Positions 14,003 through 41,658 of a DNA stretch of 64,000 nt are shown piece after piece. Under the pieces are notes generated by a model. The model did not search any database. It saw only the letters and a program-made list of their open reading frames with translations, and was not told where the DNA came from. Each line of letters begins with the position of its first letter. The stretch's first letter is position 1. Source of the DNA: Lysinibacillus sp. B2A1. Its GTDB lineage: Bacteria > Bacillota > Bacilli > Bacillales_A > Planococcaceae. The stretch spans positions 1,932,501 to 1,996,500 of the forward strand of contig CP027224.1 of the NCBI GenBank assembly GCA_002973635.1, in the 5' to 3' direction. The position numbers and the translations under genes were made by a program.

Positions 14003-14074
14003 CCTGCACGAGGGACGACACGATGTCGGTCATTTCGGTAATGCCACAGGACGTGGCGTTTTTACCGATGCAGG
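14003..14074 (+). repeat. Hairpin repeat, CACAGGACGTG core, copy 1
   Basis: An outer stem CCTGCA/TGCAGG (14003-14008 and 14069-14074) encloses TCGGTA/TACCGA (14035-14040 and 14063-14068), capped by GCCACAGGACGTGGC. The core CACAGGACGTG is at 14045-14055. Confidence 0.7.
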
Positions 14075-14231
14075 TCAGTTAGCCGTTTTCGCAGGATGCG
14101 AAGATGTTAGGCTAACATCCTTTTTTCATTCCTTTGAAAATCCGTGACATCCGCCAGAGGCTTTGGGCCAACAGTTGTTTTTTGCGCGAAAGCGTAGTGC
14201 TAACGTAGCGTCAGTAGCAAGATGTTGGTCA

Positions 14232-14270
14232 CTCAGTCATTGCCACAGGACGTGACGTTTTTAGACTGAG
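14232..14270 (+). repeat. Hairpin repeat, CACAGGACGTG core, copy 2
   Basis: CTCAGTC (14232-14238) pairs with GACTGAG (14264-14270) and encloses the same core (14244-14254) and T run as copy 1. The stem sequence differs entirely from copy 1 while pairing is kept. Confidence 0.7.
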
Positions 14271-14379
14271 TTCCTCTATTTCAGTAGGTGTTTGGGCCCC
14301 CAATGAAATGGAACCAATACCGCATTCATCTCAGCATCTTTAGAGGAGGGAGTCTTCTACAGAATGAAGATAGATGAAA

Positions 14380-14890: not shown

Positions 14891-15114
14891 TGATTGGAGT
14901 GTAGACTGAGTGACTCCTCAGGGATTCAGCGTCACAGATGAGACCCTGGAGCGAGCATATTAGGGGAACGAAGGCTAAAAGCATCACGTCCTGTGATAAC
15001 GCCTTCGTGACCAACCTCCTGTTGCCCCAAGCGGCTCATCGGATGCCCCCAGGAAGCTCTGCTCTGCGCGAAAGCGAAGCGTCAGCGGCAAAGCACTCAG
15101 TCGGAACGGAAATC
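14891..15114 (-). repeat. Palindromic Bacillaceae-type repeat, copy 2, inverted
   Basis: The same borders occur in reverse: TGATTGGAGTG (14891-14901) and GGAACGGAAATC (15103-15114). Just inside, ACTGAGTG (14905-14912) pairs with CACTCAGT (15094-15101). The interior differs from copy 1 and contains a third CACAGGACGTG-core hairpin in reverse (14969-15007, stem CGAAGGC/GCCTTCG), as if one repeat had inserted in another. Confidence 0.65.
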
Positions 15115-31502: not shown

Positions 31503-31521
31503 TACATTTTATAAGAAGCAC

Positions 31522-31550
31522 TTTACATATACTCAATATTATGTTAAATT
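31522..31550 (+). promoter_or_regulatory. Promoter of cfr-like copy 1
   Basis: TTTACA (31522-31527), 17-base spacer, TAAATT (31545-31550). Both boxes and the spacing are the same at copy 2 (38825-38853). Confidence 0.7.
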
Positions 31551-31585
31551 AATCGATAATAAATTTGACTGGGGAGGTGCAAGCA

Positions 31586-31747
31586 TTGTTAACTGTTTTT
31601 AGAATTCTGTTTGGTAAAAATGTAAAACTTGGAAATGGTTTAGCAGACAAAGGGAGTAGTCTGTCCTTTTTTATGCTATACAACCATATAAAAATAGTTA
31701 TCGGAGCTTTGCCTCTATGCCAAGTAAATTACAAAGTAATGACTTAG
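31586..31747 (+). CDS. Leader peptide of cfr-like copy 1
   Basis: A 53-codon frame starts at TTG 31586 behind the very strong GGGGAGGTG (31571-31579). It reads MLTVFRILFGKNVKLGNG at the start and matches the copy 2 leader through residue 41 except one position (I37 against T37). A missing base after codon 41 changes the frame, so the C-terminus differs. The frame covers the antiterminator arm, so ribosome position should decide whether the terminator at 31787 forms. Confidence 0.65.
   Translation: MLTVFRILFGKNVKLGNGLADKGSSLSFFMLYNHIKIVIGALPLCQVNYKVMT
31696..31707 (+). promoter_or_regulatory. Antiterminator arm, cfr-like copy 1
   Basis: AGTTATCGGAGC, within the leader frame, can pair with GCACCGATAATT in the left arm of the terminator (31788-31799), with one A-A mismatch and one G-T pair. 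Pairing here would disrupt the terminator hairpin. The arm is identical in copy 2. Confidence 0.65.
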
Positions 31748-31786
31748 TGTCCTTATGTATTTGAGCATATTTTTTGTATGAAGTTT

Positions 31787-31816
31787 GGCACCGATAATTC
31801 TATTGGTGCCTTTTTT
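31787..31816 (+). terminator. Attenuator terminator before cfr-like copy 1
   Basis: GGCACCGATA (31787-31796), loop ATTC, TATTGGTGCC (31801-31810), six T. It lies between the leader and the methyltransferase gene, so it must be overcome for expression. Confidence 0.88.
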
Positions 31817-31899
31817 GTGTTTATTTTTAACTAAAGGATAGACAACTCCTTTCTATTTACTCCTATAAAACTAGAGAGTCATATGGAAGGATGAGCATG

Positions 31900-32952
31900 A
31901 TGCAATTAAAACAAAGCAATAAGTATATAAGAATAAACGATTTCTTAAATGAACATAATTACCCTAATTTTAGAAAGAAACAAATATTGAATGCCATTTT
32001 TAAAGAAAGAATAGATAAGTTCAATGAAATGAATGTGCTTCCTAAATCGTTGAGAGAGAAATTAGTTAAAGAATTTGGAGAGTCTATTTTAGATGTTACT
32101 CCTTTAAAGGAACAACATTCTGAGCAAGTTTCAAAAGTCTTATTTGGAATTGCAGGAGATGAAAAAATAGAAACGGTAAATATGAAATATAAAGCTGGTT
32201 GGGAGTCATTTTGTATATCCTCGCAGTGCGGTTGTAATTTTGGTTGTAAATTTTGTGCAACTGGAGATATAGGTTTAAAACGCAACTTAACATCAGATGA
32301 AATTACTGACCAAATTTTGTATTTTCACTTAAAGGGACATTCAATTGATAGTATTTCTTTTATGGGAATGGGAGAAGCATTAGCTAATGTACAAGTTTAT
32401 GATGCTTTAAATGTACTGACAAATTCTGAGTTGTTTGCCTTAAGTCCTCGTAGAATATCGATATCGATTATAGGCATTATTCCGGGTATTGAAAAAATGA
32501 CCCAAAACTATCCGCAGATCAATCTAACGTTTTCATTACATTCTCCTTATAATGAACAGCGGAGCAAGCTAATGCCAATTAATGAACGCTACCCATTATT
32601 GGATGTAATGGATACATTAGATGAGCATATACGTATGACCTCAAGAAAAGTTTACATTGCTTATATTATATTACCAGGAGTAAATGATTCTATTGACCAT
32701 GCAAAAGAAGTAGTAAAACTTTTAAGAGGTAGATATAAGAGAGGGAACCTATTCCATGTAAACATCATTAGGTATAACCCAACTGTTAGTTCACCTATGA
32801 GGTTTGAAGAAGTAAATGAGAATCATGTTGTAAACTTCTATAAAGAATTAAAGTCAGCAGGAATTAACGTTACCATTAGAAGTCAATTTGGTATTGATAT
32901 AGATGCTGCTTGCGGGCAGTTATATGGAAACTATCAAAAAAACAATAATTAA
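31900..32952 (+). CDS. cfr-like: Cfr-type 23S rRNA (adenine2503-C8) methyltransferase, copy 1
   Basis: From the ATG at 31900 the protein has 350 residues and key cysteines fall where they do in Cfr: C112, C116 and C119 (CNFGCKFC, radical SAM cluster) and C338 (IDAACGQLYG, methyl-carrying Cys). The end VTIRSQFGIDIDAACGQLYG is Cfr-like, not RlmN-like. The family adds a methyl to C8 of A2503, protecting the peptidyl-transferase centre from phenicols, lincosamides, oxazolidinones, pleuromutilins and streptogramin A. A GGAAGGATGAG site favours ATG 31900 over 31891. It is about 90% identical to copy 2. The resistance spectrum is inferred from the family. Confidence 0.9.
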   Translation: MQLKQSNKYIRINDFLNEHNYPNFRKKQILNAIFKERIDKFNEMNVLPKSLREKLVKEFGESILDVTPLKEQHSEQVSKVLFGIAGDEKIETVNMKYKAGWESFCISSQCGCNFGCKFCATGDIGLKRNLTSDEITDQILYFHLKGHSIDSISFMGMGEALANVQVYDALNVLTNSELFALSPRRISISIIGIIPGIEKMTQNYPQINLTFSLHSPYNEQRSKLMPINERYPLLDVMDTLDEHIRMTSRKVYIAYIILPGVNDSIDHAKEVVKLLRGRYKRGNLFHVNIIRYNPTVSSPMRFEEVNENHVVNFYKELKSAGINVTIRSQFGIDIDAACGQLYGNYQKNNN

Positions 32953-33262
32953 TAAATAAAAGTGAAAGTAATGTTTAGAACGTGGGAAGTATCCTAAGAG
33001 ATTTGCCTCTCTCACACTAAAGGGATATGTGGGACTTTCCATTATTACAACATCATGTCTGTTTATTATTTATTTTTCTGTAGTTCTAAAGCATACTTCA
33101 AATCAACTAGTTTGTGATTACAAAATTCTGAATGCCTAAAGAAGGTATTTCCTTTGCTGCACATCTTTGAGAAGGGGATGTTGTCGTGTGCATTGCATTT
33201 GAGTTATCCACGACATAGTTCAATATTGACTACACAAAATAATTGATAATTTATTCAAATAA

Positions 33263-33306
33263 AACGGATTTGGACGATAGGCAGTTTCCAAATCCGTTAC
33301 TTTTTT
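33263..33306. terminator. Terminator between cfr-like copy 1 and ferredoxin
   Basis: AACGGATTTGGA (33263-33274) and its exact complement TCCAAATCCGTT (33287-33298), then ACTTTTTT. T-rich sequence also follows on the minus strand, so it may serve both converging genes. The roughly 260 bases between the end of the repeat and this hairpin show no gene. Confidence 0.8.
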
Positions 33307-33411
33307 ATTTATTAATGTTCCAAGTTTTAAAATGCTTATGTATCATGTTTTAATGTAATAAACCCTTCAAAAACATTTGACAGTTAAACATAACCATTAT
33401 CAAATCCCGTT

Positions 33412-33648
33412 TTAGTTTCGAAAATGATTAAGTGCTAATAGGGTTGCCGAATTATATTCAGTAGGCAAATCGTCCTCAAAATAAATAGCCTCTACTGGAC
33501 AAACTAATTCACAAGCACCGCAATCAATGCAAATATCAGGATTAATTACATATTGGGTATCTGTCATAACAATGCAATTTACAGGACAAACATCCAAACA
33601 GACAGCTGCTTTTTCATCCCTACATAATTCTGTAATTACAAAAGCCAT
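33412..33648 (-). CDS. 7Fe/8Fe-type ferredoxin
   Basis: The 78-residue protein has C-x7-C-x3-CP (CRDEKAAVCLDVCP) near the N-terminus, typical of a [3Fe-4S] or atypical first cluster, and a full [4Fe-4S] motif CIDCGACELVCP. A soluble low-potential electron carrier. Ribosome binding site AGGAGG. It starts 11 bases after the ywhD-like gene and so lies in its operon. It could feed electrons to the neighbouring radical SAM enzymes, but that is speculation from position. Confidence 0.9.
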   Translation of the reverse strand: MAFVITELCRDEKAAVCLDVCPVNCIVMTDTQYVINPDICIDCGACELVCPVEAIYFEDDLPTEYNSATLLALNHFRN

Positions 33649-33659
33649 TATAAATCCTC

Positions 33660-34187
33660 CTATCTAGATAGTTGTTGTCTTAATTCTTCAGGTGACTGTT
33701 TCCAGTACTCTTCATTAAATCCAGATAAAAACTGATAAAGTAGTTGTTTCGAATTTATATCTACATGATTCAAGATAAATTTCCCTTTAAGTGCCTTGTC
33801 TAAATAATTTACTTGTTCTGGCAATGATTTATAGCCAAGTTTAATTCGGCGTTCTTCTTTTGATACGCGTACTTCACTTGCTGTACATCCCGCATAAAAA
33901 GGTCCATTTTGAGCAATTTGAATAGCTACCCAAACAATCCAATAACGATTATAATTGTCACTAGCATGAGCTAAATCAGGGGAAAAGCGAACTTTTTTTT
34001 CAATTATACTTCGCCCATGTAAGGCTTCTAAGTCAATAAATACGTGGTTGTTTTCACAATCTATAATAATAGGTGTTACATTATTTAAATCAAGGGTACC
34101 TACTCCATAACCTCCATCTCCATCTGTTGAATCGTTACTTAAAATAGTAAAATGCATTTTTTTTTCATAGAAATCACCTTCAGACAA
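33660..34187 (-). CDS. YwhD-family protein
   Basis: The 175-residue protein contains FTILSNDSTDGDGGYGVGTL, then PIIIDCENNHVFIDLEALHGRS, YWIVWVAIQ and FYAGCTASEVRV, which I recognise as the YwhD family of unknown function. The start is uncertain: the annotated frame opens at TTG 34187 without a good ribosome binding site, whereas the best ATG (34168, 5 bases after AAGGTGA) is one base out of frame because of a run of nine A. Operon with the ferredoxin gene. Confidence 0.65.
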   Translation of the reverse strand: MSEGDFYEKKMHFTILSNDSTDGDGGYGVGTLDLNNVTPIIIDCENNHVFIDLEALHGRSIIEKKVRFSPDLAHASDNYNRYWIVWVAIQIAQNGPFYAGCTASEVRVSKEERRIKLGYKSLPEQVNYLDKALKGKFILNHVDINSKQLLYQFLSGFNEEYWKQSPEELRQQLSR

Positions 34188-34650
34188 TTTGTATTTCTAG
34201 ATTAATATAAGATTGAAATTGTAAGCTCCCAGCATTTTATTTGTTTTGAATAAACCTATACTCTGAATCCTCTAATACTTTTTAATTAATTATTATAAAT
34301 AAAATATACAACTTATTTTCATTTCTTGTCTTCAGGCTTACGTCTGAAATTTTTTGGAATGGTAAGGTTACTATAATAAAGTAATTTGAACTTTAATTTT
34401 GAAAAACGCTAATCATAGTATAGATAGTCAACAGTGTAATCAGCATATAACTGATTTAGAAAAAACAAAAGTGTTTTTCTGAAAGCGGATTTAGAAAATC
34501 CATTTTTATTATATTCTTTAAAATTCTTCACTTTAATTAACAATCCTTTAAACAAGTATTGAATCCTTAATGTTTGATAAGTGTTATGAGAAGCAGATAT
34601 AAGTTATTGAAGGATAATAATTCCTTTTGTCGAATTTTGTTATAGACGAA
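34188..34650. other. Divergent intergenic region
   Basis: About 460 very AT-rich bases between the ywhD-like (-) and kinase-like (+) genes. No gene, repeat or clear promoter could be picked out with confidence. Confidence 0.4.
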
Positions 34651-34663
34651 AGGAGAAATAAAA

Positions 34664-35248
34664 GTGCAAGTTACAAAGTATTTTCATGGACTACCGAAGG
34701 AAAGTCAAAATATTATTTATTCTTATGGAAATGAAAGGATATTGGGTGAAAGTATTAAAATAATACAAAACAATATAAAACGTTCTATTATATTTGATCT
34801 TAATGGGAAAGATATTATTTTAAAAAAATTGTTATCTAAAGGAAAAGGCGACAATGATATTCATGCATTATTAGATCTAAATGATAGCCCTTATTTTCCA
34901 ACGATTTTCGCATATAAGACCAGAGATTTTTTATTTATAGAAAAAGCAAAGGGAAGGCCCTTACCAGAGATTTTAAAAAAGGGTATTTGTCTTACAGAAT
35001 TAAAAATAATTCTTGGTCATTTGGTTAAAGCAAAAAGAGCTATGATGGATGTAAATAGATATGACTATGATTTTAAACTTGAACATATCTTTTGGGATAA
35101 AGAAAATAAGAAAGTTACATGGATCGATTTAGGAATTTGTATGAAAACACCTAAAAAATACTCAGAAGAGGAAAAGGAAAAAAGGATTCAACTATGTATT
35201 ACAAAAATAAAAATCAATTTTTTAATTAATGGTTATGACTTATTTTAA
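34664..35248 (+). CDS. Small protein-kinase-like protein
   Basis: The 194-residue protein shows a reduced kinase fold: a Lys-containing strand (DIILKKLL), a hinge-like FLFIEKAKGRPL, a catalytic-loop-like DYDFKLEHIFWD (D-x-K-x-E-H in place of HxD...N), and TWIDLG as the DFG-like metal site. It resembles RIO/APH-type or bacterial lipopolysaccharide-kinase-like proteins and is much shorter than antibiotic phosphotransferases. Start GTG behind AAAGGAG. Substrate unknown; it sits between the two cfr-like copies. Confidence 0.55.
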   Translation: MQVTKYFHGLPKESQNIIYSYGNERILGESIKIIQNNIKRSIIFDLNGKDIILKKLLSKGKGDNDIHALLDLNDSPYFPTIFAYKTRDFLFIEKAKGRPLPEILKKGICLTELKIILGHLVKAKRAMMDVNRYDYDFKLEHIFWDKENKKVTWIDLGICMKTPKKYSEEEKEKRIQLCITKIKINFLINGYDLF

Positions 35249-35393
35249 ATTTGGGTATACATATTTTAGGGATTTTAGGAAGCGGGGAAAAGCACAACTG
35301 GGTAGCAGTCAATGCACGAAGGAAATTTCTCTAACTGGTTAATGCGAGTTTGAAAATTTCCCAATAGAACTGTTACTTAACTATAGCTACGAA

Positions 35394-35444
35394 TGTATTT
35401 CCAAGAATGATGTATTTCCAAGAATGATGTGTTTACAAGAAGGT
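35394..35444 (+). repeat. 17-bp tandem repeat
   Basis: TGTATTTCCAAGAATGA occurs twice in tandem (35394-35427) with a third degenerate unit after it. Confidence 0.7.
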
Positions 35445-35448
35445 TATG

Positions 35449-35497
35449 CTCCCCTTTAAAGACAGATGCTATAGTCTTTTTTCTAAGGGGAGTTTTT
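35449..35497 (+). terminator. Terminator after kinase-like gene
   Basis: CTCCCCTT (35449-35456) pairs with AAGGGGAG (35485-35492), with inner AAAGAC/GTCTTT pairing and five T after it. Confidence 0.75.
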
Positions 35498-35514
35498 AAT
35501 TGCAAAGCTATGCC

Positions 35515-35952
35515 CTAATTTTCATCTTTTATTTTCCAATCGTTGTATATGATATCCTGAAGAACATTTTTCAGTTGTATAAATTGCTGCTCAGAGATAT
35601 TTGATTGCCTCATTACTTGACGAGACACTTCAGGGAGCTTACGACGAACATTACTTCCTTCCTGTGTTAAATAAATTTGCATTTGTCGTTCGTCATTCCT
35701 GGAACGCTCACGGCAAATGTAACCCTTTGCCTCTAACTTTTTTAGTAACGGTGTTAATGTACCTGAATCTAAAAATAAACGTTGTCCCAACTCTTTCACA
35801 GTTATTTGTTCGTTTTCTTCTAAAGCTAGTAAGGTGATATAACCTGTATAAGTTAGATCATAGGGCTTCAATAATATTGTGTAATGTCGAATGATTTCTT
35901 TTGATGTAGCATACAAAAGAAAGCACAGTTGATTATCTAAATGATTAGGCAT
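35515..35952 (-). CDS. ohrR: OhrR-type MarR-family peroxide sensor
   Basis: The 145-residue winged-helix protein has HLDNQLCFLLYATSKEIIRHY near its start, placing the reactive Cys of OhrR, and the MarR wing RSRNDERQMQIYLT. OhrR represses ohr until organic hydroperoxides oxidise this Cys. It is divergent from ohr and an OhrR operator lies between them. Confidence 0.9.
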   Translation of the reverse strand: MPNHLDNQLCFLLYATSKEIIRHYTILLKPYDLTYTGYITLLALEENEQITVKELGQRLFLDSGTLTPLLKKLEAKGYICRERSRNDERQMQIYLTQEGSNVRRKLPEVSRQVMRQSNISEQQFIQLKNVLQDIIYNDWKIKDEN

Positions 35953-36009
35953 AAAAATCCCCTCTTAAAGTTCTTCTACTACCATTTATATTAAAAATAA
36001 AGTTTCTAC

Positions 36010-36038
36010 TTGTCAAACGCAATTAAATTGTGTACAAT
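36010..36038 (+). promoter_or_regulatory. ohr promoter
   Basis: TTGTCA (36010-36015), 17-base spacer, TACAAT (36033-36038), 60 bases before ohr. The spacer is part of the OhrR operator. Confidence 0.8.
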
Positions 36039-36048
36039 TCAATTTGTA
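36019..36048. promoter_or_regulatory. OhrR operator
   Basis: GCAATTAAATTGTG followed by TACAATTCAATTTGTA closely matches the known Bacillus OhrR site, two tandem TACAATT-AATTGTA inverted repeats. It overlaps the -10 box of ohr. Confidence 0.85.
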
Positions 36049-36098
36049 AAAATTAGATTGTTTGCAATTTAAAATACTAAATAGATTAGAGGTTTTCG

Positions 36099-36506
36099 AT
36101 GATGAAAGAATTATATTCAACTACGATGATTAATAATGGTGGGCGTAGTGGCACATCATATGCAGAGGATCAATCGCTATCTTTAAAAATTGCACCACCT
36201 GGCTCAAAATTAGACAATGTTACAAACCCAGAACAATTATTTGCTGCTGGTTATAGTGCCTGCTTTAATAGTGCATTAGATTTAATTAAACGCCAGAAAA
36301 AACTTAAAAATTCATCAACGATTAAAGCAACAGTTAAATTAATGGAACAAGCTGCTTTTGATTATGTGCTTGCTGTTGTTATCGAAGGACATATTGAAGG
36401 ATTAGCCTTGGAAGAAGCACAGGAATTATTAGAGTTAACTCATACTGTTTGTCCATATTCAAAAGCAACAATGGGAAATATTAATGTAACAATTAAAGCT
36501 GTTTAA
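36099..36506 (+). CDS. ohr: Organic hydroperoxide resistance protein
   Basis: The 135-residue OsmC/Ohr-fold peroxidase has both redox Cys: GYSACFNSAL and HTVCPYSKAT. It reduces organic peroxides with a dithiol cofactor. It begins the ohr-nitroreductase unit and is controlled by the divergent OhrR. Confidence 0.93.
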   Translation: MMKELYSTTMINNGGRSGTSYAEDQSLSLKIAPPGSKLDNVTNPEQLFAAGYSACFNSALDLIKRQKKLKNSSTIKATVKLMEQAAFDYVLAVVIEGHIEGLALEEAQELLELTHTVCPYSKATMGNINVTIKAV

Positions 36507-36533
36507 ATTTTTTTCAAAAAAGAGGGAGATTAC

Positions 36534-37160
36534 ATGTCGTCAACTACACCAGTAAAACAGATTATGCAGGAGCGTAAATCGGTTCGTAAATACAATGCTA
36601 AAACTAAAATATCTCGTGAAACAATAGTGCAGCTACTACAAGATGCTATTTCAGCTCCTTCTTCGAGTAATATGCAACCATGGCGATTTATTGTCATTGA
36701 TGATAAGGAAATTCAAAAGAACATTAATTTCTTTTCATTTAACCAAGAGCAAATAGAAACAGCCTCTGCCATTATCGCTGTCATTGGAGATATTGAAATG
36801 TATGTAAATGCTAAGGAGATTTATGCAAAAAATGCGGAGCTAGGCTATATGCCAGAAGAAATTGCCAAAAAACTTGGACAAGACGCATTAGCAATGTACG
36901 GTTCAGCTTCAACAAAAACATTAGAAAACATAGTACATTTTGATGCTGGCTTAGTATCGATGCAGATAATGTTATTGGCGAAAGAAATGGGTTATGATAC
37001 AGTTCCGATGGGTGGGTTTGATAAAACGAAATTCGCTGAATATATGGAATTACCTGCAAACGAAATACCAATATTATTAATAGCAATTGGTGAAGCAGCA
37101 GCTCCAGCTTATGGTTCTTCTCGTCTTCCAATTGATCGCATTGTAAGATTCAATAAATGA
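36534..37160 (+). CDS. Nitroreductase-family flavoprotein
   Basis: The 208-residue FMN enzyme begins MQERKSVRKYNAKTKISRE and has APSSSNMQPWRFIVI, the FMN-binding region of the NfsB-like family. It reduces nitro compounds or quinones using NAD(P)H. It follows ohr by 28 bases, so it is probably induced by peroxides with ohr. Confidence 0.88.
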   Translation: MSSTTPVKQIMQERKSVRKYNAKTKISRETIVQLLQDAISAPSSSNMQPWRFIVIDDKEIQKNINFFSFNQEQIETASAIIAVIGDIEMYVNAKEIYAKNAELGYMPEEIAKKLGQDALAMYGSASTKTLENIVHFDAGLVSMQIMLLAKEMGYDTVPMGGFDKTKFAEYMELPANEIPILLIAIGEAAAPAYGSSRLPIDRIVRFNK

Positions 37161-37168
37161 ATTTTTAG

Positions 37169-37206
37169 GCAATGTCCCAAATATATTTTGCGGACATTGC
37201 TTTTTT
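37169..37206 (+). terminator. Terminator after nitroreductase
   Basis: GCAATGTCC (37169-37177) and GGACATTGC (37192-37200), then six T. The following 460 bases to the AhpD-like gene hold no recognisable gene. Confidence 0.88.
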
Positions 37207-37666
37207 AAAACTTTATATTAGGGGTGAATAGGATGTCTGCTTAGTCGTAGCAGTTGAGTATGTATTTTAAAACATTTGCAACTATATCAAAGCAAACAGC
37301 ATCTTAATGTCCATATTCTTTTTATAAATCAAGGCATTAAAATGGTCTTATTACAACCGTCTTATTATATGGTCTATTTTTATGTCATGAAAAAATTATG
37401 ATTGTCGATATTTATGGAACCTGAATAAGCTCGAAGTAATTGGTTCATCATTCAAAAATCAATAATGGCAATGAGACGAACGTCTATAAACTTCCCCTTT
37501 GTTCTAATATTTTACAAGTAGCAGAAAGTCCCCCTTTGCGATGAAAGTCTAAGGGGGTGAGATAATAAGTTTTTAAAAAAGTTTTCCTGATGATATCTTC
37601 ATTTATATAATATTATAGCCTTAACTATTTCATAAAAATAAACCTTCCAACTTCTAGTGTCCTTCT

Positions 37667-38098
37667 TCATTGTTCCCCTCCCTCCAAGCTTGGCTCTAAA
37701 GATAAAATTGCCCCAAAATACTGTTGAGCTGTAGTAAAAGTAATAAACGCACAAAGCTCACTTATTTCTGCTTCTGAAAAAAATTCCTGTAATATTTCAA
37801 AAGAAGAATTTGAGATATCTCCTTTTTGCTGTAAAAAAACCTCTGCAAAGCCTACAGCAACAGATATTTTTTCATTAAACATATATGGCTCTGGTTTCCC
37901 TTTTGCTTTACAATACTCACAACCATTTTTTTGCGCTAATGTTCTTCTAACCTGTTCTTTTAACTGTGATGATAAAAGTCCATCTCTTTCTAACACCTTT
38001 CCTAAATATGACCATGCTTCCATAATTTCTTTATTGTGTCCTAATAACCTCTGAAAAGGCGTATTCCCAAAAGCTGATTCATTAATTCTTGCCATCAT
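37667..38098 (-). CDS. AhpD-like (carboxymuconolactone decarboxylase family) protein
   Basis: The 143-residue helical protein contains LAQKNGCEYCKAKGK, the C-x-x-C redox site of the AhpD/CMD family. Members act as alkylhydroperoxidases or decarboxylases. Ribosome binding site AAGGAGGGG. It is divergent from an Lrp-type regulator 117 bases away, which may control it. Confidence 0.78.
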   Translation of the reverse strand: MMARINESAFGNTPFQRLLGHNKEIMEAWSYLGKVLERDGLLSSQLKEQVRRTLAQKNGCEYCKAKGKPEPYMFNEKISVAVGFAEVFLQQKGDISNSSFEILQEFFSEAEISELCAFITFTTAQQYFGAILSLEPSLEGGEQ

Positions 38099-38215
38099 AA
38101 CCCCTCCTTGTTATATTAAATATAAAATATTGAAAGATTAATTTGCATTAAATAAAAAATTAATTTTTATAAAATAAATTAAATAATTAATGAAAAATAG
38201 GAGAATTCGTTAAAG

Positions 38216-38650
38216 ATGAAAATCGATGAAATTGATCATAAAATTATAGAGGAATTAAGCAAGAATAGTCGTCTGTCAATGAGTGAGCTTGGGAGAAGAA
38301 TCAACCTTTCTTCCCCCTCAGTGACCGAAAGGGTAAGACAGATGGAGTCATTTGGTGTAATAAAAAAATATACGTTGGAAATTGATTATGAAAAATTAGG
38401 ATTTCCCATTCAATGTATAATTGAAGCAACTGTTAAAAACGGAGATTATAAATCATTTAAAAATTTTATAGAGGGACTTCCAAATGTAGAGTTTTGTTAC
38501 CGTATAGCTGGTAATGCTTGTTATATGCTTAAATTGCAATTTGCAACTATTGCAAAAGCAGAAAAGTTTATTGATGCTGTGAATCCGTATGCATCCACCG
38601 TAACACATTTCATTTTTTCTCAAATTCAAACAACATTAAGAATTGATTGA
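38216..38650 (+). CDS. Lrp/AsnC-family regulator
   Basis: The 144-residue protein has an N-terminal helix-turn-helix (KNSRLSMSELGRRINLSSPSV) and the C-terminal RAM ligand domain (VEFCYRIAGNACYMLKLQF). It probably senses an amino acid and may control the divergent AhpD-like gene. Confidence 0.9.
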   Translation: MKIDEIDHKIIEELSKNSRLSMSELGRRINLSSPSVTERVRQMESFGVIKKYTLEIDYEKLGFPIQCIIEATVKNGDYKSFKNFIEGLPNVEFCYRIAGNACYMLKLQFATIAKAEKFIDAVNPYASTVTHFIFSQIQTTLRID

Positions 38651-38741
38651 TATTGTTTGTGTGTAGAAATAGATAACGAAACTCTTTTTTATACAACTAA
38701 TCCAGATTGAGGTAAGTTGCCTTTTACTATATTTATATCAA

Positions 38742-38774
38742 TAAAGTCCCTAAACGAGCAATTTAGGGACTTTA
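38742..38774. terminator. Bidirectional terminator after lrp-like gene
   Basis: TAAAGTCCCTAAA (38742-38754) and its exact reverse complement (38762-38774) around a 7-base loop. Confidence 0.75.
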
Positions 38775-38824
38775 TCATATCGAAAAATAGAATATTTCCT
38801 TACGTACACTTTTATAAGAAGCAC

Positions 38825-38853
38825 TTTACATATACTCTATTTTATGTTAAATT
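38825..38853 (+). promoter_or_regulatory. Promoter of cfr-like copy 2
   Basis: TTTACA (38825-38830), 17-base spacer, TAAATT (38848-38853), as in copy 1. Confidence 0.7.
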
Positions 38854-38889
38854 ACTCGATAATAAATTTGACTAGGGGAGGTGTAAGCA

Positions 38890-39069
38890 ATGTTAACTGT
38901 TTTTAGAATTCTTTTTGGTAAAAATGTAAAACTTGGAAATGGTTTAGCGGACAAAGGGAGTAGTCTGTCCTTTTTTATGCTATACAACCATATAAAAACA
39001 GTTATCGGAGCTTTCGCCTCTATGCCAAGTAAAATACAAAGTAATGACTTAGTGTCCCTGTTTATTTGA
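38890..39069 (+). CDS. Leader peptide of cfr-like copy 2
   Basis: A 59-codon frame starts at ATG 38890 behind GGGGAGGTG. It begins MLTVFRILFGKNVKLGNG and ends SNDLVSLFI, 21 bases before the attenuator hairpin. A stem GGACA/TGTCC followed by TTTTTT (38949-38976) lies inside the frame and could be an extra early terminator when the leader is untranslated. Conservation of frame and start signal between two diverged copies argues that the peptide is translated. Confidence 0.68.
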   Translation: MLTVFRILFGKNVKLGNGLADKGSSLSFFMLYNHIKTVIGAFASMPSKIQSNDLVSLFI

Positions 39070-39090
39070 GCATATTTTTATATTAAGTTT

Positions 39091-39120
39091 GGCACCGATA
39101 ATTTTATTGGTGCCTTTTTT
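39091..39120 (+). terminator. Attenuator terminator before cfr-like copy 2
   Basis: GGCACCGATA (39091-39100), loop ATTT, TATTGGTGCC (39105-39114), six T. The competing arm AGTTATCGGAGC is present upstream, about 39000-39011, within the leader. Confidence 0.88.
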
Positions 39121-39204
39121 GTGTTTATTTTTAATAAAAGGGATAGACAACTCCTTTCTATTTACTCCTATAAAACTAGAGAGTCATAGGGAAGGATGAG
39201 AAAA

Positions 39205-40263
39205 ATGCAATTAAAACAAAGCAATAAGTATATAAGAATAAACGATTTCTTAATGGAACATAATTACCCTAATTTTAGAATGAAGCAAATACTGAATGCC
39301 ATTTTTAAAGAAAGAATAGATAAGTTCAATGAAATGAATGTACTGCCTAAATCGTTGAGAGAGGATTTAGTTAAAGAATTTGGAGAGTCTATTTTAGATA
39401 TTACTCCTCTAAAGGAACAACATTCTGAGCAAGTTTCAAAAGTCTTATTTGGAATTGCAGGAGACGAAAAAATAGAAACGGTAAATATGAAATATAAAGC
39501 TGGTTGGGAGTCATTTTGTATATCCTCGCAGTGCGGTTGTAACTTTGGTTGTAAATTTTGTGCAACTGGAGATATAGGTTTAAAACGAAACTTAACATCA
39601 GATGAAATTACTGACCAAATTTTGTATTTTCACTTAAAAGGACATTCAATTGATAGTATTTCTTTTATGGGAATGGGAGAAGCATTAGCTAATGTACAAG
39701 TTTTTGATGCTTTAAAAGTACTGACAAATCCTGAGTTGTTTGCCTTAAGTCCTCGTAGATTATCAATTTCGACTATTGGCATTATTCCAGGCATTCAAAA
39801 AATGACCCAAAACTATCCACAGGTCAATCTAACTTTTTCATTACATTCACCTTTTAATGAGCAGGGAAGCAAGCTAATGCCAATTAATGAACGCTACCCA
39901 TTATTGGATGTCATGGATTCATTAGATGAGCATATACGTATGACCTCAAGAAAAGTTTACATTGCTTATATTATATTGCCAGGTGTGAATGATTCTATTG
40001 AACATGCAAAAGAAGTAGTAAACCTTTTAAGAAGTAGATTTAAGAGAGGGAATTTATTCCATGTGAACATCATCAGGTATAACCCAACTGTTAGTTCACC
40101 TGTGAAGTTTGAGGGAGTAAATGAAAATCAAGTTGTAAACTTCTATAAAGAATTAAAGTCAGCAGGAATTAACGTTACCATTAGAAGTCAATTTGGCATT
40201 GATATAGATGCTGCTTGCGGGCAGTTGTATGGAAACTATCAAAAAAATATGAAACAAAGGTGA
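39205..40263 (+). CDS. cfr-like: Cfr-type 23S rRNA (adenine2503-C8) methyltransferase, copy 2
   Basis: The 352-residue protein, counted from ATG 39205, has C112/C116/C119 and C338 as in Cfr and copy 1. It keeps the canonical SISTIGIIPGI where copy 1 reads SISIIGIIPGI. Ribosome binding site GGAAGGATGAG. Unlike copy 1 it is followed after 76 bases by an L3 gene with no terminator between, so it heads a three-gene unit: cfr-like, L3 paralogue, SurA_N-like. Expression should depend on the leader attenuator. Resistance activity is inferred from the family. Confidence 0.9.
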   Translation: MQLKQSNKYIRINDFLMEHNYPNFRMKQILNAIFKERIDKFNEMNVLPKSLREDLVKEFGESILDITPLKEQHSEQVSKVLFGIAGDEKIETVNMKYKAGWESFCISSQCGCNFGCKFCATGDIGLKRNLTSDEITDQILYFHLKGHSIDSISFMGMGEALANVQVFDALKVLTNPELFALSPRRLSISTIGIIPGIQKMTQNYPQVNLTFSLHSPFNEQGSKLMPINERYPLLDVMDSLDEHIRMTSRKVYIAYIILPGVNDSIEHAKEVVNLLRSRFKRGNLFHVNIIRYNPTVSSPVKFEGVNENQVVNFYKELKSAGINVTIRSQFGIDIDAACGQLYGNYQKNMKQR

Positions 40264-40339
40264 GAATAATGTTTAGAACGTGGGAAGTACCCTAAGAGAT
40301 ATTTTGCTAGCTATCTATTAAAATTTTAGGAGGGTATTT

Positions 40340-40975
40340 ATGATAAAAGGAATCTTAGGAAGAAAAATAGGCATGTCTCAAGTGTTCAGTGATAGTGGTG
40401 ATCCCATAGTTGTGACAGTTGTTGAAGTTGAAGAAAATGTGGTGTTACAGAAGAAAACGTTGGAAAGTGATGGATACAATGCTATTCAAATTGGTTTTTC
40501 TGATAAGAAGAATCCAAACAAGGCGGAAATCGGTAGAAGTCAAAAAGCAAATACTACTCCTAAGAGATATGTTAAAGAAATTCGTGGAGCATCATTAGAA
40601 GTTGGCAAACGAATAAGGGCAGATATATTCCAAGAAGGTGACATTGTAGATGTTACTGGTATATCTAAAGGAAAAGGATTTCAGGGTGTCATTAAAAGAC
40701 ATGGATTAAGTGGAGGTCCTGCATCTCACGGTTCAAGATTCCACCGGGCTCCTGGCTCCATTGGTGTAATCGCTAAAAATGATGGCATGAAAGTGTTCAA
40801 AGGAAAAAAAATGCCCGGACGTATGGGTGGAAAACAGACAACTATTCAAAATCTTACAATTATAAAGGTTGATAGTGAACGTAATTTGTTATTAATTAAA
40901 GGAAATATTCCCGGAGCTAAAAAGTCGTTTGTAATAATAGAAACTGCCATAAAAAAATTGAATGAAAAATGGTGA
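40340..40975 (+). CDS. rplC-like: Ribosomal protein L3 paralogue with enlarged peptidyl-transferase loop
   Basis: The 211-residue protein is a full L3 ([29 protein letters not shown]-like [38 protein letters not shown]). It is not in a ribosomal protein operon. The loop between PGSIG and VFKGKK (residues 143-151, VIAKNDGMK) has nine residues; from memory the normal L3 of Bacillus, Staphylococcus and Escherichia has six or seven. This finger approaches A2503 and is where L3 mutations give linezolid and pleuromutilin resistance. Strong AGGAGGG site. The role as a resistance-variant L3 is inference. Confidence 0.88.
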
Positions 40976-40981
40976 TAATTA

Positions 40982-41608
40982 GTGATAAACAAAAAGAATA
41001 ATAGCAAAAATATTTGTAGAGATCCTGTAGTCATTTCAGATTTTTTGATGTTGACTGACAATGATAAAATTCAACTACCGTCCATTGTGGCAAAAGTTAA
41101 CGGCTATGAAATAAGTTTAAACTATTTAAATATTGAGCTGATTAACGACATGAAATTGGGTATCATACCTTCTGAAATGTCTTCATCAGACCTTCTTGAG
41201 AGTTATTATTATGCTCTTGAATCAGTCATTGAACATGAGCTTATTGTACAAAAAATGAATGAGGATAGCAGCATTTCTAGATGGGAACCTGATAAAGAAC
41301 AAGTTACTGAATGTATGCAAGAATTATTTGACGAGTTTGGAATTGATATATCAGAAGAATATTCTAAACAGGAGATTGAAGAATTGGTATTGCAGGAATT
41401 GCGTATACAACAATTTATTGATAATCAGTTAGGAGACAATAGTGTATCCAAGGAAGAGATTGAACACGAATACCAAAATTCACCTGAAAAAGGAGAAATG
41501 CAAAAGGAATATATTCGTGTTATCCTTGAATATGAAAAGCGAGAAGAGCAATATAAAAACTTTATTCTTGAATTGAAAAATGCAGCGTCAATTGAAACCT
41601 ATCTATAA
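40982..41608 (+). CDS. Cytosolic SurA_N-like protein
   Basis: The 208-residue protein contains IVAKVNGYEISLNYLNIELI and, after a helical stretch, YYALESVIEHELIVQKM, the pattern of the N-terminal chaperone domain of SurA/PrsA foldases. It has no signal peptide, lipobox or peptidyl-prolyl isomerase domain, so it should stay in the cytosol. Start GTG lies 7 bases after the L3 stop, with GGTGAT overlapping the L3 end: tight coupling. It might assist folding or ribosome loading of the L3 paralogue, but this is a guess from position. Confidence 0.6.
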   Translation: MINKKNNSKNICRDPVVISDFLMLTDNDKIQLPSIVAKVNGYEISLNYLNIELINDMKLGIIPSEMSSSDLLESYYYALESVIEHELIVQKMNEDSSISRWEPDKEQVTECMQELFDEFGIDISEEYSKQEIEELVLQELRIQQFIDNQLGDNSVSKEEIEHEYQNSPEKGEMQKEYIRVILEYEKREEQYKNFILELKNAASIETYL

Positions 41609-41624
41609 TTTCATATGAAATTAG

Positions 41625-41658
41625 ATCAATCCTTCCAAATTTTTGGAGGGATCTTTTA
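41625..41658 (+). terminator. Terminator of the cfr-L3-SurA_N unit
   Basis: ATCCTTCCAAA (41629-41639) pairs with TTTGGAGGGAT across a T loop, with GATC extending the stem, followed by TTTT. Confidence 0.8.

Follow-up and report, generated by a model that had tools for sequence, protein, structure and literature searches.

Why should a gene of the Cfr methyltransferase family be followed directly by a complete gene for a ribosomal protein? This question is raised by a locus of Lysinibacillus sp. B2A1, whose genome is a single contig of 5.51 Mb and from which a stretch of 64,000 nucleotides (C1:1932501-1996500), called here the window, was analyzed. At positions 38823-41657 the window holds a compact unit made of a leader open reading frame (ORF) with an attenuator, a cfr gene, a full-length gene for ribosomal protein L3 (uL3), a gene for a SurA-core-like protein and a terminator. 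A sequence-only reading of this DNA had described the same succession, and the ORFs were found where it had placed them. Cfr methylation gives the resistance phenotype named PhLOPSA. We consider it rather probable that the unit is a resistance operon, induced by antibiotics, whose products alter the ribosomal peptidyl-transferase centre (PTC) in two modular ways.

The genes are closely packed, with 76 nt between cfr (copy 2 of the two cfr genes in the window) and the L3 gene, and 6 nt between the L3 gene and the third gene; AGGAGG precedes the L3 start codon. A scan of the 76-nt gap found neither a terminator-like hairpin nor a promoter-like site on the + strand, in agreement with the earlier claim that no terminator parts these two genes. 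Between 38650 and 41800 there are two terminator-like hairpins, the attenuator and the closing hairpin of Table 1, versus 1.1 in shuffled sequences. In Lysinibacillus sp. BPa_S21 and Heyndrickxia sporothermodurans, the 55 nt that follow the third gene show no obvious counterpart of the closing hairpin. The promoter scan gave 9 sites versus a shuffle mean of 13.8 and is weak evidence, because there are fewer sites than in shuffles; the promoter element CTTTACATA is kept in 13 of 14 aligned upstream regions (G150 is the exception), and its second hexamer is variable. Searching genomes for cfr-like genes beside rplC-like genes, the check proposed with the sequence-only reading, returned the same triad order in further Lysinibacillus genomes and in H. 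sporothermodurans. The order is conserved beyond chance, since cfr (frameshifted in one case), L3 and the third gene follow one another at all five loci with a full-length third gene: the window, G040, G027, G049 (Lysinibacillus sp. BPa_S21; G620 is the same genome) and H. sporothermodurans J6TS2.

The two cfr genes of the window lie about 7 kb apart, each preceded by a leader ORF with an attenuator, and their downstream similarity ends about 50 nt past the gene. Their proteins are 93% identical, score above the NCBIfam cut-off for Cfr (TIGR04432: 617.9 and 615.4 versus 550) and below that of the RlmN model (275.6 and 271.8 versus 290), match PF04055 and carry the radical SAM motif CxxxCxxC as CNFGCKFC. 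By score and motif, both are assigned to the Cfr family of A2503 C8-methyltransferases. The window Cfr is 83% identical to Cfr(B) and 73% to staphylococcal Cfr.

The product of the L3 gene scores well above the bacterial L3 cut-off (TIGR03625: 259.4 versus 142.9), and its predicted model matches ribosomal L3 chains (best Foldseek E 8.5e-25). The sequence-only reading had recognized that its proposal would fall if the normal rplC were missing elsewhere in the genome. A second L3, 62-65% identical to the window L3, is encoded at C1:5307402-5308025 in the S10 operon order rpsJ-rplC-rplD-rplW-rplB-rpsS-rplV-rpsC (neighbours named by eye from sequence), and the idea that the window gene is the housekeeping copy was therefore rejected. 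The same pairing of a single paralogue with a single housekeeping L3 was seen in carriers G040, G027 and G049. A phylogenetic tree of 34 L3 proteins groups the six paralogues in a single clade (100/100) and places the host's housekeeping L3 in another starred set. Because the paralogue clade stands apart from the host's rplC, the gene was acquired and not copied locally; a recent duplication of rplC was rejected on the same grounds. Across five cassettes, dN/dS ranged from 0.046 to 0.176 for L3 and from 0.221 to 0.406 for the third gene (10 pairs each), and from 0.104 to 0.177 for cfr (6 pairs, the frameshifted G049 cfr excluded), the pairs sharing ancestry and not being independent. In most pairs L3 shows the tightest constraint of the three genes, and its frame is uninterrupted at all five loci; judged by these ratios, purifying selection on the paralogue is strong.

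At the PTC the paralogue carries an eight-residue loop, VIAKNDGM, in place of the usual one of five or six residues, in a segment where resistance changes have been published. This loop could be parsed in 204 of 235 L3 proteins (272 proteins minus 37 relatives of the third gene), which are best matches to the paralogue and not a fair sample; eight of them have eight residues, all with IAKNDGM, and the other 196 have five or six. Five of the eight are close to the window L3 and three (P0007, P0030 and P0158) are not, being 64-69% identical to it. VIAKNDGM aligns with residues 148-153 of E. coli L3 and 156-161 of S. aureus L3, the latter taken from plasmid record H25. In the available text of two reports, changes of uL3 R149 in Thermus lead to tiamulin resistance (PMC7345174), and an L3 deletion that arose in a patient was accompanied by an increase in the linezolid minimum inhibitory concentration of E. 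faecium from 8 to 64 mg/L (PMC12691684). By alignment, this clinical deletion, as described there, removes the segment that matches the loop of the paralogue. Furthermore, the solved L3 chains matched by the window L3 include two from linezolid-resistant S. aureus with uL3 mutations (7ttw and 5t7v).

The same loop is found in a housekeeping gene of another genus. P0158 is the sole L3 of G407 (Candidatus Salinicoccus stercoripullorum) and is encoded inside the S10 operon (G407:C32:67775-68431; L062 / L061). When this rplC was compared with that of G416 (Salinicoccus) in 30-nt blocks, identity was 77-100% in codons 1-90 and 171-222 and 46-77% in codons 91-170, which bear GTIAKNDGMHVFKG; at the protein level the middle part of P0158 equals P0030. 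The gene reads as a housekeeping rplC into which the loop segment has recombined, in the manner of mosaic penicillin-binding proteins; the genome is metagenome-derived, and an assembly fault may lie behind the mosaic. P0007 and P0030 are full-length L3s with the same loop, differing N-terminal parts and an identical C-terminal part, and are perhaps mosaics too. The loop pattern occurs in one of 157 genomes of the Salinicoccus order and in the L3 genes of two of 398 genomes of the class, those of the window and G407; a third match in the class scan, in G425, was discarded as not an L3, and the virus collection gave three matches, none within an L3 gene.

The cassette seems to move as a unit. 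Three cassettes share similarity from about 38820-38850 to about 41610-41657 of the window and have different flanks; that of G040 has the window's flanks. Two ORFs that by eye resemble an IS3-type transposase pair lie in G040 between an AsnC-type gene and the cassette (L050:9594-10945). In Siminovitchia terrae, a protein annotated as '50S ribosomal protein L3' is 92% identical to the window L3, and a fragment of the third protein (117 residues) is also present. Among the 261 genomes of the family, 12 have a strong cfr, at 13 loci: four with L3 and the third gene, two (G068 and G045) with third-gene traces only, and seven with neither extra gene in the stretch covered (mostly about 1.5 kb downstream). 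In G045 the trace consists of 44 bp that match the beginning of the third gene, behind an L3-less cfr (L054:9970-10013), and is a further sign of loss. As for plasmids and phages, no copy of the paralogue was found among L3 matches in 62 of 72,556 plasmid records (4 at 60-80%, 58 below 60%, best 63%) or in 13 of 50,697 phage records (2 at 60-80%). Twelve of the plasmid records are Clostridioides 'plasmids', and the two examined (C. difficile records NZ_CP149721.1 and NZ_CP033217.1, L030 and L031) show the rpo/S10 region and look like pieces of chromosome; they were set aside.

A mobile resistance gene preserves traces of the operon. Among plasmids, the third protein has a single match, about 320 bp downstream of cfr(B) on the E. 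faecium plasmid NZ_LR135358.1 and near integrase and excisionase genes; directly behind cfr(B), remnants of L3 as well as of the third gene were found (L068:5464-7295). Compared piecewise, this locus has a leader ORF 80% and a Cfr 83% identical to those of the window, L3 remnants covering the first 15 residues (80%, E 0.003) and residues 192-210 (84%, E 2e-4), and third-gene remnants covering residues 4-34 (65%) and 112-205 (44%). DNA blocks match window positions 39180-40384, 40913-41084 and 41314-41612 at 82-85%, the last two with E values of at most 1e-51. The gene table of PLSDB, which is incomplete, misses these remnants. From their presence it follows that cfr(B) originated in an operon composed of cfr, L3 and the third gene, and that the latter two were lost. 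That Bacillales Cfr, Lysinibacillus included, branch near cfr(B) had already been published, as the available text of that study states (PMC11047308); the remnants are the new part. For other mobile cfr types, no remnant of L3 or the third gene was seen in five records (two cfr, two cfr(D) and one cfr(C)) of 181 with a match. In two S. aureus plasmids, H77 and H78, a second stretch of nucleotide similarity to the cassette lies well downstream of cfr.

By fold search, which favours SurA, the third protein has a SurA core fold. It has no SurA_N match at the gathering score, no parvulin match in its 208 residues and, by eye, no hydrophobic signal in the first 30. Among 34 members, SurA_N_2 was matched by 6 (best E 0.029) and DUF5939 by 18 (best E 0.0017). 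A profile of the family matches 39 residues of ribosomal protein S3 (E 0.0029; third-protein residues 127-165), by chance or mimicry; kinship with S3 was set aside as the fold search points to SurA. Weak matches in 12 of 261 genomes (ORFs of 255-304 residues, 23-28% identity), which are perhaps PrsA, were not counted as the same gene.

The leader may explain how the unit responds to drugs. A homologous leader ORF, M[LI]T[VI]FRILFGK..., precedes cfr at 13 of 14 loci (none at G150, whose Cfr is 66% identical and which is outside the 13-locus parse) and has 53 codons in 11 of the 13. It is present with plasmid cfr, cfr(D) and cfr(B) and absent from the single cfr(C) record examined. The 'hypothetical protein' WP_013356267.1, encoded before staphylococcal cfr (L069:2177-2356, L070:2212-2391), matches it with 78% identity over 41 residues. 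In predicted folds, the full transcript forms the terminator and a transcript ending inside the terminator forms the antiterminator, so that a leader ORF, a terminator and a mutually exclusive, predicted antiterminator are all present. The 5' arm is TTATCGG in 12 of 13 leaders and TTATCGT in one; because the arms hardly vary, covariation cannot support the antiterminator. As predicted, the arrangement has the usual form of drug-dependent attenuation.

From the architecture, paralogy, loop, selection, spread and remnants, which are read off the DNA itself, we infer the following biochemistry. A drug-stalled ribosome on the leader ORF would favour the antiterminator over the attenuator and allow transcription of cfr, L3 and the third gene. 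Cfr would then methylate C8 of A2503, and the L3 paralogue would compete with housekeeping L3 for new 50S subunits, placing its longer loop VIAKNDGM against the PTC and weakening the binding of pleuromutilins and oxazolidinone-site binders. The third protein, a putative cytosolic chaperone of SurA-core/trigger-factor-like type translated in step with L3, would hold the L3 paralogue and favour its use in assembly. This mechanism is probable as regards the loop and Cfr, and plausible as regards the chaperone; resistance, entry of the paralogue into ribosomes and help from the third protein are predicted.

Several observations weigh against this reading, chiefly against a tight two-arm machine. 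L3 is lacking at 9 of the 13 strong cfr loci; both extra genes were lost in several lineages, including that leading to cfr(B), where they are dispensable because cfr(B) persists after losing both; and in G049 cfr is frameshifted (L052:8153-9216) with L3 and the third gene intact. The paralogue is rare, present in four of the 261 family genomes and, among the 398 of the class, solely in that of the window. G407 bears the loop and has no Cfr, just a 35% match. The L3 model keeps the L3 fold with a pLDDT below 50 over most of residues 125-158, so that placement of the loop rests on alignment. In the available text of the reports cited above, the Thermus uL3 changes gave no cross-resistance to the other PTC drugs tested (PMC7345174), and the E. 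faecium deletion had a growth cost and occurred in a strain that also has optrA, the authors noting that it may potentiate OptrA rather than act alone (PMC12691684). Neither Pfam nor NCBIfam gave a match to the third protein at E 0.001. The sequence-only reading had proposed that the PTC is remodelled twice in the presence of antibiotic; a leader-controlled unit with a true L3 paralogue, variant in a drug-pocket loop, conserved, under selection and leaving remnants, upholds the outline of that proposal, and its two arms proved less tightly bound than it implied.

Some of these facts bear equally on other explanations. The L3 paralogue and its helper might compensate for effects of A2503 methylation on ribosome function or assembly and confer no resistance of their own, as the position of L3 downstream of cfr in all five carriers examined and the resemblance of the helper to a folding or assembly factor would allow. 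However, the loop also occurs in the sole rplC of the Cfr-less G407, L3 stays intact where cfr is frameshifted, and most strong cfr loci manage without L3, and such compensation seems to us unlikely. The modular losses of either part, like the loop of G407, would suit a unit in which cfr and L3 are separate determinants under one leader, L3 alone being the target substitute for another PTC binder, a natural product outside the Cfr spectrum; there is no candidate compound, and the common leader and the constant gene order point to a joint response, which makes this explanation improbable.

The L3 gene might also be a functionless rplC copy that strayed in between cfr and a piece of a chaperone gene. 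In favour of this, at least three lineages (B. ndiopicus/G068, G045 and cfr(B)), whose losses may be independent, have lost L3 and, wholly or in large part, the third gene. The dN/dS values (0.05-0.18 for L3 and 0.22-0.41 for the third gene, 10 pairs each), the unbroken L3 frame at all five loci and the reuse of the loop in another genus speak against it; this explanation is already disfavoured, and we give it very little chance.

The reading as a resistance operon with two modular actions on the PTC can be taken further, to a mobile drug-inducible operon that joins A2503 methylation to the exchange of uL3 for a resistance-type protein, with a dedicated cytosolic chaperone for its delivery, and that gave rise to cfr(B); of this fuller picture we are more hesitant, doubt slightly outweighing belief. 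The sequence-only reading knew of no cassette pairing cfr with L3, and in the open-access literature searched (titles and abstract openings, with most subscription papers outside that scope) we also found no cfr-L3 operon or acquired L3 gene described. If the picture is true, this would be the first acquired ribosomal-protein resistance determinant, as far as the literature searched goes, and, to our knowledge, the first dedicated chaperone of a bacterial ribosomal protein. Resistance to PTC drugs could then be acquired as a substitute ribosomal protein, beyond rRNA methylation, efflux, ABC-F protection and mutation. IAKNDGM would be a portable module for resistance, which recombination also carries into housekeeping rplC and which resistance-gene catalogues overlook, and such L3 genes would be missed because their annotation reads simply '50S ribosomal protein L3'. 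Environmental bacteria now provide intact relatives of the operon that gave rise to cfr(B), and it becomes testable whether cells can alter the drug sensitivity of their ribosomes by swapping a core protein on demand.

Table 1. Features of the two cfr loci in the window (positions of the window)
Feature	Position	Strand	Basis
Leader ORF of cfr copy 1, TTG start where the other 12 have ATG	31586..31747	+	leader parse
Attenuator of cfr copy 1	31787..31810	+	sequence, leader parse
cfr copy 1, 353 aa, L3 not next	31891..32952	+	ORF, profile score
Probable promoter (TTTACA-17-TAAATT, TG before second hexamer)	38825..38853	+	scan, not above shuffles
Leader ORF of cfr copy 2 (MLTVFRILFGKNVKLGN...)	38890..39069	+	homologous ORF at 13 cfr loci
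Predicted antiterminator 5' arm TTATCGG, pairing with CCGATAA at 39095-39101	39002..39008	+	folding of shortened transcript
Attenuator (intrinsic terminator) of cfr copy 2	39091..39114	+	hairpin scan, leader parse, folding
cfr copy 2, Cfr-family A2503 C8-methyltransferase, 355 aa	39196..40263	+	ORF, profile score
L3 (uL3) paralogue, 211 aa	40340..40975	+	ORF, profile, tree, alignment, structure match
Codons of the eight-residue loop VIAKNDGM (residues 143-150)	40766..40789	+	loop parse, alignment
SurA-core-like protein, 208 aa, without parvulin domain, no signal peptide seen	40982..41608	+	ORF, fold search
Terminator-like hairpin closing the unit	41629..41652	+	hairpin scan, folding

Elsewhere in the window, three Bacillaceae-1 RNAs (RF01690) are clustered on both strands, at 14061-14126, 14214-14280 and 14959-15025.

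Compared with known systems, the unit shares with Cfr and Cfr(B) the protein family and a homologous leader ORF, but its cfr is the first gene of an operon that also includes L3 and a chaperone-like gene. The third protein differs from SurA, PrsA and trigger factor in having no parvulin domain, signal peptide or Pfam match (E 0.001) and in being coupled to an L3 gene. Chromosomal rplC mutations that give linezolid or pleuromutilin resistance affect the same protein and the same segment; there the housekeeping gene is mutated, whereas here an extra, horizontally acquired L3 with a longer loop stands beside a normal housekeeping rplC. Altered L3 has been proposed before as a self-resistance factor of producers: ARTS regularly flagged rplC, among seven core genes, in producers of protein synthesis inhibitors, most hits being phylogenetic incongruence and fewer duplications, and the available text of that study describes no mobile L3, cfr or leader (PMC9290621). 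Conditional swapping of ribosomal proteins is known from the zinc-responsive paralogues of L31, L33, L36, S14 and S18, according to the available text (PMC12186496). These resemble the unit in replacing a protein by its paralogue but, as described there, answer zinc, whereas the window L3 is free of cysteine and accompanied by a drug-type leader and a resistance gene.

Finally, resistance by target replacement with an insensitive second copy is familiar from mecA and ileS2/mupA. Duplicated gyrB and fabB/F are further examples, given in the available text of the ARTS study (PMC9290621). The unit resembles these cases in that an acquired second L3, altered at the site of published resistance changes, lies beside an intact housekeeping copy whose sensitivity is assumed from its normal loop; it differs from them in that its target is a ribosomal protein, which needs assembly into the 50S subunit and is encoded together with an rRNA methylase.

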